The position numbers were made by a program, and so were the translations under genes. From Sulfobacillus benefaciens (GTDB taxonomy: Bacteria > Bacillota > Sulfobacillia > Sulfobacillales > Sulfobacillaceae), in assembly GCA_003023725.1 (NCBI GenBank), contig PXYT01000024.1:38833-85876 (forward strand): a stretch of 47,044 nt of DNA, in the 5' to 3' direction. The notes below the pieces were generated by a model that did not search any database, was not told the DNA's origin, and worked only from the letters and a program-made list of their open reading frames with translations. Below, one piece after another: positions 1,880-6,170 of the stretch; position 1 is the first letter of the stretch, and each line of letters begins with the position of its first letter.

Positions 1880-1954
1880 TGGAGCGGAAGACGGGACTTG
1901 AACCCGCGACCCTCGCCTTGGCAAGGCGATGCTCTACCACTGAGCTACTTCCGC
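1880..1954 (-). tRNA. tRNA-Gly (anticodon GCC)
   Basis: The minus strand folds as a cloverleaf. The acceptor arms are GCGGAAG/CTTCCGC, the anticodon loop in CGCCTTGCCAAGGCG shows GCC, and the T-loop is TTCAAGT. CCA is encoded and the discriminator is U73, usual for tRNA-Gly. It is the last gene of the tRNA operon. Confidence 0.95.
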
Positions 1955-1960
1955 ATGGAA

Positions 1961-2044
1961 TGGTGCGAGGGAAGGGACTTGAACCCTTACGCCTTGCGGC
2001 ACGAGATCCTAAATCTCGCATGTCTGCCATTCCATCACCCTCGC
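1961..2044 (-). tRNA. tRNA-Leu (anticodon TAG)
   Basis: The 84-nt cloverleaf has a long variable arm, typical of class II tRNAs. The acceptor is GCGAGGG/CCCTCGC, the anticodon loop TTTAGGA reads UAG (Leu, CUA codons), the discriminator is A73 and CCA is encoded. Confidence 0.95.
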
Positions 2045-2045
2045 A

Positions 2046-2121
2046 TGGTGCGCCCGGTAGGATTCGAACCTACGACCTGCGGATTCGAAGTCCGTCACTC
2101 TATCCCCTGAGCTACGGGCGC
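2046..2121 (-). tRNA. tRNA-Arg (anticodon TCG)
   Basis: The acceptor is GCGCCCG/CGGGCGC, the anticodon loop CTTCGAA reads UCG (CGA family), the T-loop is TTCGAAT and CCA is encoded. Only one base separates it from the neighbouring tRNA-Leu. Confidence 0.95.
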
Positions 2122-2157
2122 AAAAAATCCCGGAATACCGGGGAAAACAAAAATTTT

Positions 2158-2235
2158 TGGGGTGAATGAGGGGACTTGAACCCCCGACCCCCAGGGCCAC
2201 AACCTGGTGCTCTAACCAACTGAGCTACATCCACC
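2158..2235 (-). tRNA. tRNA-His (anticodon GTG)
   Basis: The acceptor is GTGGATG/CATTCAC, the anticodon loop TTGTGGC reads GUG, and the discriminator is C73 followed by encoded CCA. The G at 2235 supplies the extra 5' G(-1) characteristic of tRNA-His. Confidence 0.95.
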
Positions 2236-2249
2236 ATCTTGATAGTTCC

Positions 2250-2326
2250 TGGTGTCCCCGGCAGGACTTGAACCTGCGACGCCGGGATTAGAAGTCCCGC
2301 GCTCTATCCAACTGAGCTACGGGGAC
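2250..2326 (-). tRNA. tRNA-Arg (anticodon TCT)
   Basis: The acceptor is GTCCCCG/CGGGGAC, the anticodon loop CTTCTAA reads UCU (AGA codons), the T-loop is TTCAAGT, the discriminator is A73 and CCA is encoded. It is the second arginine tRNA of the operon. Confidence 0.95.
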
Positions 2327-2335
2327 GCCTTCGTC

Positions 2336-2412
2336 TGGTCGGGGCGACAGGATTTGAACCTGCGACCCCTTGCTCCCAAAGCAAGTGCGCTACCAAACTG
2401 CGCTACGCCCCG
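2336..2412 (-). tRNA. tRNA-Pro (anticodon TGG)
   Basis: The acceptor is CGGGGCG/CGCCCCG, the anticodon loop TTTGGGA reads UGG, the T-loop is TTCAAAT and CCA is encoded. It is the first gene of the operon, directly behind the promoter at 2429-2457. Confidence 0.95.
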
Positions 2413-4519: not shown

Positions 4520-5266
4520 CTAACTTTCTCCAATCAACAGCGCTCCTTCGGGCAACATCGTCTTTTCCAACGCTATCAGACCGTCTATCGCCGGCTCGAC
4601 AAAATCCAGCAGCAAATCGAGCTGAGGACGCGTAAACAAACCGTGTTCAGCCGTTCCCTGAAGTTCAATTAATTGATGTTGACTCGTCATAACCACATTC
4701 ATGTCGACACCGATTTGTGAATCTTCGTGATAGTTAAGGTCCAGATACACTTCATCGTCGTGAAGCCCCACACTGATCGCCGCCATCCAATCTTTCAGGG
4801 GCTTGGTAGCAAAAGGTGAAGTTTTGTTAATCTTCGTCAAGGCCTGGATCAAGGCCATGAAACCAGCGGTGATGGCGGCTGTTCGGGTGCCCCCGTCTGC
4901 CTGAATGACGTCGCAGTCGAGCAGAATGCTTTTCTCGCCAATCACTTTAAGATTGAGAATGGCTCGTAAAGAACGGCCGATGAGCCGTTGAATTTCAACG
5001 GTCCTTCCCTGCTGCCGGCCTCTCGATGCTTCCCGGAGAGTTCTTTCGTGAGTGGCCCGGGGCAACATCCCGTATTCGGCTGATACCCATCCTTGACCGG
5101 ACCCTCGAACAAATGGCGGAACTTTATCTTCAACCGTCGCCGTCACTAAAACCCGGGTATTGCCCACCGAAATTAAACACGATCCCTCAGCCCAGGCGTT
5201 GAATCCCAATTGAAAGTCTACAGGCCGAATGGCATCATTGCTTCGCCCGTCTTGCCGCCGAATCAT
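4520..5266 (-). CDS. rph: ribonuclease PH
   Basis: RNase PH is a phosphorolytic 3'-5' exoribonuclease that trims tRNA precursors using inorganic phosphate. The 248-residue product starts RRQDGRSNDAIRPV and contains the RLIGRSLRA segment and the signature QADGGTRTAAITAG. ATG 5266 is chosen because AGAGGAG lies seven bases upstream and the length is then standard. The open frame extends 60 codons further, but that part lies inside the tmRNA gene and its terminator and is not coding. It is followed by rdgB. Confidence 0.95.
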   Translation of the reverse strand: MIRRQDGRSNDAIRPVDFQLGFNAWAEGSCLISVGNTRVLVTATVEDKVPPFVRGSGQGWVSAEYGMLPRATHERTLREASRGRQQGRTVEIQRLIGRSLRAILNLKVIGEKSILLDCDVIQADGGTRTAAITAGFMALIQALTKINKTSPFATKPLKDWMAAISVGLHDDEVYLDLNYHEDSQIGVDMNVVMTSQHQLIELQGTAEHGLFTRPQLDLLLDFVEPAIDGLIALEKTMLPEGALLIGES

Positions 5267-5294
5267 GAGATAACTCCTCTCGTCAAAACAGTCT

Positions 5295-5322
5295 AAAAAA
5301 AACTCCCACCCACTGGCGGGAG
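5295..5322 (-). terminator. intrinsic terminator of smpB-ssrA
   Basis: On the minus strand an 8-bp stem (CTCCCGCC/GGTGGGAG, one G-U pair) with loop AGTG is followed by eight T residues. It begins seven bases after the tmRNA CCA end and precedes the rph ribosome-binding site. Confidence 0.9.
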
Positions 5323-5329
5323 AAAAACT

Positions 5330-5685
5330 TGGTGGAGGCGGGGACGTGCTGCCCGTCCCGTCCGAAGATACGTCGTGCCGGAACCCTACGAGCGTAGCCG
5401 TAAAATTCTTCTCACCGCACAGCGTCGTCAACGGCGCGGCATCCATGCGGCCAGTCCTTCATTTCCCTCGATATCCCGGACTTGATACCGAGGTATCCTA
5501 CATTTTTACGCCACGAATCCGAAGGTAGGAGCTTGGGATTCAGGCGTTAGCTGGGATTAAGCAGCTAAAGCGTAGTTTTCTTCAGTGTTGTTGGCACTTA
5601 TTGTTTTCCTGCTGTTTAGCGAGGAACAGGACCTCGGCTCGCGTTCCAACACCCCGTTCATCCCCGTCGAATCTAGTTCGCCCCC
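5330..5685 (-). ncRNA. ssrA: transfer-messenger RNA (tmRNA)
   Basis: tmRNA rescues stalled ribosomes: its alanyl-tRNA-like part enters the A site and its mRNA part adds a degradation tag. The 5' end GGGGGCGAAC pairs with the 3' acceptor strand CGCCTCC, followed by A and encoded CCA. The conserved ATTCGACGGGGAT lies in the 5' domain, and the tag reading frame at 5557-5595 encodes ANNTEENYALAA. The 356-nt length is normal. The odd feature is the T-arm (5341-5359): instead of a 5-bp stem and a UUCRA loop it reads as a 6-bp GGGACG/CGTCCC stem with loop GGCAGCA. smpB ends 23 bases upstream and a strong terminator follows, so both may share the smpB promoter. Confidence 0.95.
5557..5595 (-). other. 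tmRNA proteolysis-tag reading frame
   Basis: Twelve sense codons GCC AAC AAC ACT GAA GAA (then AAC TAC GCT TTA GCT GCT) and TAA encode ANNTEENYALAA. The LAA end is the recognition element for ClpXP-type proteases, whose ClpP subunit is encoded at the start of this window. The resume codon is the alanine GCC at 5595. Confidence 0.93.
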
Positions 5686-5708: not shown

Positions 5709-6170
5709 CTAGACCCGTTGCTTCAGTGCCCGCTCTATCCGCCGATTGGCATCACGTTGTGCCACCGTTTGCCGCTTGTCATAATGCTTTTTACCACGGG
5801 CCACACCCAATGCTAGTTTAGCACGCCCATGCTTGTCAAAATACAACCGCACCGGGATTAATGTCATCCCTTCTTGTTTCACGCGTGCCCCAAGTTCGCG
5901 CAGCTGTTTACGATGCACTAAAAGCTTGCGGCTCCGATAAGGATCATGGTTATAACGGTTACCATACTCGTAGGGCGCAATATGGCAATTAAAAAGATAT
6001 AACTCTCCTTTATCGAATCGGGCAAAACTATCACGCAGATTCACACGTCCCGCTCGCAATGACTTCACTTCCGTGCCGGTCAGCACCATGCCGACCTCGA
6101 TTACCTCATCAATAAAGTAATCGTGACGAGCCTTTCTGTTCTCGGCAATGGGTTTTTCATTTCTCGCCAT
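5709..6170 (-). CDS. smpB: SsrA-binding protein SmpB
   Basis: SmpB binds the tRNA-like domain of tmRNA and delivers it to stalled ribosomes, with its C-terminal tail acting in the decoding centre. The 153-residue product shows the family blocks ENRKARHDYFI, GTEVKSLRAGRVNLRDSF, ELYLFNCHI and KLALGVARGKKHYDKR, followed by the basic tail (RRIERALKQRV). GGGGG lies nine bases before the ATG. The gene is 23 bases upstream of ssrA in the same direction, so protein and RNA partners are adjacent. A near-consensus promoter lies about 30 bases upstream. Confidence 0.97.
   Translation of the reverse strand: MARNEKPIAENRKARHDYFIDEVIEVGMVLTGTEVKSLRAGRVNLRDSFARFDKGELYLFNCHIAPYEYGNRYNHDPYRSRKLLVHRKQLRELGARVKQEGMTLIPVRLYFDKHGRAKLALGVARGKKHYDKRQTVAQRDANRRIERALKQRV

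Follow-up and report, generated by a model that had tools for sequence, protein, structure and literature searches.

Paired D-loop and T-loop changes at the elbow of tmRNA in Sulfobacillus and across several bacterial phyla

The tmRNA gene (ssrA) of Sulfobacillus benefaciens raises the question of how a tRNA-like elbow can be held when the loop residues that normally hold it are replaced. The canonical elbow joins the D-loop residues G18 and G19 to Psi55 and C56 in the T-loop, whose turn is closed by a U54-A58 pair. Few tertiary contacts in tRNA are as conserved as G18-Psi55, on which rapid ribosomal translocation reportedly depends (Pan et al. 2006). In tRNA, the ribosome and further partners use the flat face that G19-C56 presents, and the contact between G18 and Psi55 is part of a stack in which loop bases interleave (PMC4810234). 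Both tmRNA function and SmpB binding require the interaction of the D- and T-loops, as reviewed (PMC3968760). A reading of the Sulfobacillus sequence alone, referred to here as the original prediction, had noted an atypical T-arm, GGGACG-GGCAGCA-CGTCCC, and had offered a lineage-specific elbow, compensation in SmpB or an assembly error as its explanation.

The gene lies in a stretch of 47,044 nucleotides, which we call the window (Table 1). It matches the tmRNA model RF00023 over its full length (cmscan, model positions 1-374) with 162 bits and an E-value of 3.4e-64, the gathering score of the model being 47 bits, and it is single-copy: no other tmRNA match in the 4.56-Mb assembly exceeds the cut-off. 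Its acceptor stem of 7 bp includes a G3-U pair, the identity element for alanine, the CCA end is encoded, and the tag frame is intact and closes with a stop codon. The original prediction was right to call these parts intact, but it extended the same description to the 5' domain, which is nonstandard: its D-loop carries AG where canonical tmRNA has GG. The terminator-like hairpin that follows the gene has a folding energy of -15.9 kcal/mol (z -2.3). Downstream of ssrA are two genes that we take, by sequence recognition, to be rph and rdgB. The rph reading frame as listed (4520-5446, minus strand) extends back into the tmRNA gene, and the true start of rph is probably near 5267 (MIRRQDGRSNDAIRP).

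Table 1. Features of the ssrA locus, in window coordinates.
Feature	Position	Strand	Basis
ssrA (tmRNA), 356 nt, complete	5330..5685	minus	cmscan RF00023; ARAGORN misses the gene
Acceptor stem, 5' strand, GGGGGCG	5679..5685	minus	pairs with 5334-5340
D-loop dinucleotide AG (tRNA positions 18-19; tmRNA residues 12-13)	5673..5674	minus	cmscan alignment; covaries with T-loop position 55
Tag reading frame ANNTEENYALAA*, resume codon GCC	5557..5595	minus	translation
T-stem, 5' strand, GGGACG, 6 bp	5354..5359	minus	sequence; helix covariation
T-loop GGCAGCA, 7 nt: G54 (5353), G55 (5352), C56 (5351), A57 (5350), G58 (5349)	5347..5353	minus	order-wide conservation
T-stem, 3' strand, CGTCCC	5341..5346	minus	sequence reading
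Acceptor stem, 3' strand, CGCCTCC (5340-5334), and ACCA (5333-5330)	5330..5340	minus	sequence reading
Intrinsic-terminator-like hairpin and T run, directly 3' of the CCA end	5294..5329	minus	sequence CTCCCGCCAGTGGGTGGGAGTTTTTTTT
smpB, 153 aa, ends 23 nt upstream of ssrA	5709..6170	minus	ORF list; aligned with other SmpBs

The atypical T-arm is real and exactly as originally read; it lies within the full-length RF00023 match, it recurs throughout the order, and covariance alignment with cmscan placed no normal T-arm elsewhere. Where the canonical elbow has a UUCRA T-loop with U54-A58, and G18 G19 in the D-loop, the window tmRNA has GGCAG and AG, respectively. A G19-C56 pair is possible (G13 with C335), and this combination is kept with both loop types. 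Among 13 distinct T-arms with the GGCAG loop the helix is 100% paired, with double changes at 4 of the 6 pairs; the sixth, loop-closing pair is invariably G-C in these 13 arms, without covariation support of its own. The 6-bp stem, which the original prediction had listed, is not in itself the oddity, as 15 of 30 Chloroflexota tmRNAs combine a T-stem of this length with an ordinary TTCRA loop. The window also encodes a cluster of six tRNAs (1880-2412, minus strand; Pro, Arg, His, Arg, Leu and Gly), the T-loops of which are all ordinary TTC loops.

The 35 native tmRNAs examined in the order come from three families, some of them from assemblies with no more than 1 to 3 contigs, and all carry the T-arm GGGACG-GGCAG[CT][AG]-CGTCCC together with the D-loop AG, and thus none has a normal TTCRA loop. 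Since the same arm, bar one or two loop letters, is present in dozens of independent assemblies, the base-call or assembly error entertained in the original prediction is excluded. With its matching D-loop change, the arm appears to be a natural alternative way of holding the elbow. One genome of the order (G036), in which the main tmRNA carries GGCAG, contains a second tmRNA (70.7 bits; L141 / L305) at approximately 1018-1408 of a 13-kb contig (C113); its elbow is canonical throughout (GG, TTCGA) and its acceptor is GGGCCCG. This may be contamination, a transfer or a mobile copy.

A survey of 154 genomes of the class recovered tmRNA in 134, and inspection of the individual sequences distinguishes two forms of the altered T-loop. 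Form A has a TGCRA loop, with G at position 55 only. In form B the loop is GGCAG, which places G at positions 54, 55 and 58, and the stem is almost always of 6 bp; two families, f14 and f42, have an 8-nt loop with G-A or A-G at the sixth stem pair. The D-loop is AG in all complete tmRNAs of the class, with the exception of one family (that of G042), which has TTCGA and GG, i.e. U55 and G18, within a class that is otherwise G55/A18. The gene order around this tmRNA, rnr-smpB-ssrA-rph-rdgB, is syntenic with that of the class, and the tmRNA is therefore considered native. Substitutions are also seen at the conserved G-A/G-A tandem beside the elbow: in family f7 (L056, L083, L093, L103, L114, L116) and in L271, L272 and L285, UCGCUC or UCGAUC replaces UCGACG after the D-loop, and GAUAC or GGACAC replaces GGAC before the T-stem.

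The suggestion of a lineage-specific elbow is right, although its basis, G55 together with A18, is shared by many phyla. Genome contigs were scanned with a pattern for the TGCRA T-arm of which the D-loop was not a part. Among the matches listed, TGCRA T-arms occur in the permuted tmRNAs of Caulobacteraceae, in Elusimicrobia, in Saccharibacteria and other Patescibacteria, and in Acidobacteria, Melainabacteria, Nitrospirales and several Bacillota. These listed matches comprise 115 TGCRA loci with a paired T-stem, and the 5' domain could be located for 104 of them, every one with the D-loop AG (100 by script and 4 by inspection). Thirty tmRNAs from Pseudomonadota and 30 from Chloroflexota all have GG with TTC. 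When 398 genomes spread over the phylum of the window were searched with a form-B pattern, the sole paired T-arm of this kind outside the class was in a single Bacillota family (f79; G184, G225), with the T-arm GCGGGG-GGCAGTT-CCCCGC and the D-loop AG. This family's GGCAG loop seems to have arisen independently; where the family falls on the tmRNA tree is not firm.

The association between the two loops is without exception in 255 standard-form tmRNAs from several phyla: 177 have A18 with G55, 78 have G18 with U55 and none has a mixed combination, in a sample that is not random, as 47 rows from the contig scan had been picked for G55, though not for A18. The same 255 sequences divide at positions 54 and 58 into 199 with U/A and 56 with G/G, again with no mixed cases. 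Apparent exceptions to the 18-55 rule (L278, L211, L213, L226 and L237) proved on inspection of the printed sequences to be artefacts of the regular expression or of spacing. At L270, L277, L279, L281, L283, L284 and L286, the matches stop inside a TTCGA T-loop, as would be expected of group I introns, and the sequences have GG and U55.

Shared descent was taken into account with a tree of tmRNA cores from which the loops had been removed, using pairs that differ at position 18 and are joined by non-overlapping paths. Of the well-supported independent pairs, 7 of 7 show position 55 changing along with position 18 and in the same sense (p 0.016 by a two-sided sign test). The best tree yields 21 independent pairs, all 21 of which change at both positions; parts of the core tree are poorly resolved and some of its branches are long, making the number of events approximate. 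For 54 and 58, all 3 well-supported independent pairs change together, and the best tree allows 14. The absence of mixed combinations at 18/55 and 54/58 does not depend on the quality of the tree. Covariation of this kind shows that the sites are coupled, rather than with what geometry.

What was observed is the sequences and how far they are conserved, the paired changes, and an SmpB in which no change tracks the loop. Very probably these reflect a functional tmRNA that keeps its tRNA-like elbow together through other tertiary contacts than the usual ones. In such an elbow, A18-G55 would replace G18-Psi55 and G54-G58 would replace U54-A58, with G19-C56 retained and the T-stem one pair longer. 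It is because the partners change together, and because G19 and C56 are always kept, that A18-G55 and G54-G58 are proposed to have taken over these structural roles. The changes in the D- and T-loops would compensate one another inside the RNA, and the L-shaped elbow would still present its G19-C56 face to SmpB, EF-Tu and the ribosome. That these bases pair at 18-55 and 54-58, with what geometry, and that the molecule functions normally, we infer from the sequence comparisons. The literature searched contained neither a structure nor an assay for a tmRNA with a GGCAG loop.

One rival to such a rewired set of contacts, raised by the original prediction, is that the SmpB (or EF-Tu) of the lineage has changed to recognise the altered T-arm, so that protein-RNA coevolution carries the elbow. 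The SmpB encoded beside the window ssrA has conserved contact residues, and the order does have private residues in this protein, e.g. V29, Y85, E99 and A/S/L126 (E. coli numbering, consistent with the residues named in PMC8363625). However, the other GGCAG lineages mostly lack them: E126 is kept in 22 of 25, and T29 and R99 are the commonest residues at their positions. An initial set of 72 SmpBs was enlarged to 110 (45 from form B, 43 from form A and 22 canonical), and in the alignment of these 110 no column tracks the loop type beyond the order of the window. The apparent link of positions 29, 85, 99 and 126 to the loop thus vanished once other GGCAG lineages were added. In the set of 72, the tmRNA-contact residues L90, L91, R86, R88, K124 and K133 are invariant or nearly so whatever the loop type, their neighbours also vary little, and the contact residues L90-L92 (named in PMC8363625) are unchanged or conservatively replaced (L92 by V or M). 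The D-loop change is enough to account for the coupling by itself. Coevolution with SmpB is therefore largely refuted and we regard it as very improbable; the lack of a loop-tracking change in SmpB and the paired change in the D-loop together argue that the compensation lies in the RNA. Position 126 is A, S or L in 20 of 20 SmpBs of the order, glutamate being common elsewhere.

Relaxed constraint, with a dispensable elbow and drifting loops, would fit the departure of the loop letters from the textbook consensus, but the GGCAG and TGCRA cores hardly vary over dozens of families, the D- and T-loop changes are always paired, and the tag frame and acceptor stem of the window tmRNA are intact, so that decay is the least credible of the biological alternatives. 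An escape from mobile DNA is less remote, but still unlikely. Loops without U54 and U55 would resist the group I introns of tmRNA, which usually need a U before their T-loop site; according to the 2025 tmRNA database paper, 883 intron-form tmRNAs are known, and in every one the intron lies in the T-loop (PMC11915505). The tmRNAs in our sample that look interrupted by introns have U55 and GG, and none of those of the class looks interrupted. However, the set of interrupted-looking tmRNAs is small and its members were chosen for their low scores, and TGCRA loops retain U54 and often U60. Escape from introns would moreover explain what drove the change and not how the elbow works, and is compatible with rewired contacts. 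Loss of TruB was also considered as a driver and rejected, as TruB is encoded; the retained enzyme presumably serves tRNAs.

The T-loop of E. coli tmRNA carries m5U and pseudouridine. As the window T-loop has no uridine at 54 or 55, neither modification can form there, which suggests that tmRNA can do without modified T-loop uridines. A more general reading, for and against which we see about equal weight, is that the 18-55 pair, considered near-universal among tRNA-like RNAs, has in A18-G55 an interchangeable second form that has repeatedly switched with G18-Psi55 in bacterial tmRNA, and that the G54-G58 form, needing no U54 or U55, has released tmRNA from modification of its T-loop and perhaps from invading introns. 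An RNA that in nature goes through the ribosome with another 18-55 pair, and whose lineage has made the switch more than once, would be a ready-made experiment on what the elbow needs.

The window tmRNA shares with canonical tmRNA (E. coli type, RF00023) its architecture, the G-U alanine pair, the tag frame, GGAC before the T-stem, C56 and the neighbouring smpB, and differs from it in the AG D-loop, the GGCAG T-loop, the 6-bp T-stem and the lack of uridine at 54 and 55. Parts of this combination have been known since 2005 as single-species G55 or GG variants and a sixth T-stem pair, in the portion of PMC1168896 that deals with them. There, U342 of Caulobacter crescentus tmRNA is replaced by G, and the passage on Caulobacter does not mention a matching D-loop change (PMC1168896); we find A18 in Caulobacteraceae, whose member C. 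crescentus resembles the window tmRNA in having G at T-loop position 55 but keeps U54-A58, a 5-bp stem and a two-piece permuted gene. The mitochondrial tmRNA of Reclinomonas americana is described in the same portion as having GG at two T-loop U positions, i.e. G54 G55 as in the window, and Dehalococcoides tmRNA as having a possible sixth T-stem pair (PMC1168896). The Chloroflexota tmRNAs that share the 6-bp stem differ in their TTCRA loop and GG D-loop. A natural purine-purine replacement at 54-58 that accompanies a second tertiary change is also found in eukaryotic tRNA-Ala, where A54-A58 occurs together with a change at R15/A48, a type not seen in bacterial or archaeal tRNAs (PMC7566577); the window has G-G rather than A-A, in a tmRNA, and the coupled site is 18-55 and not 15-48. 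The excerpt of the 2025 database paper describes T-loop introns and does not describe elbow rewiring (PMC11915505). Our literature search, which stopped short of Barends et al. 2002, the likeliest source, turned up neither the changed D-loop partner nor an account of how widely it occurs, and no description of the GGCAG form in Sulfobacillus and its relatives.

The altered arm has a practical consequence for annotation. ARAGORN made false permuted calls when excised tmRNAs were treated as circles, and linear flanked DNA was used instead; on this, ARAGORN detected 0 of 72 form-B and 43 of 59 form-A tmRNAs. Annotation that relies on ARAGORN only will thus report tmRNA as missing in Sulfobacillus and relatives. 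In silico, changing the D-loop alone, or introducing a TGC loop, left the window gene undetected, and placing an ordinary 5-bp TTC arm in the window sequence allowed ARAGORN to find it, and hence it is the T-arm that causes the gene to be missed.
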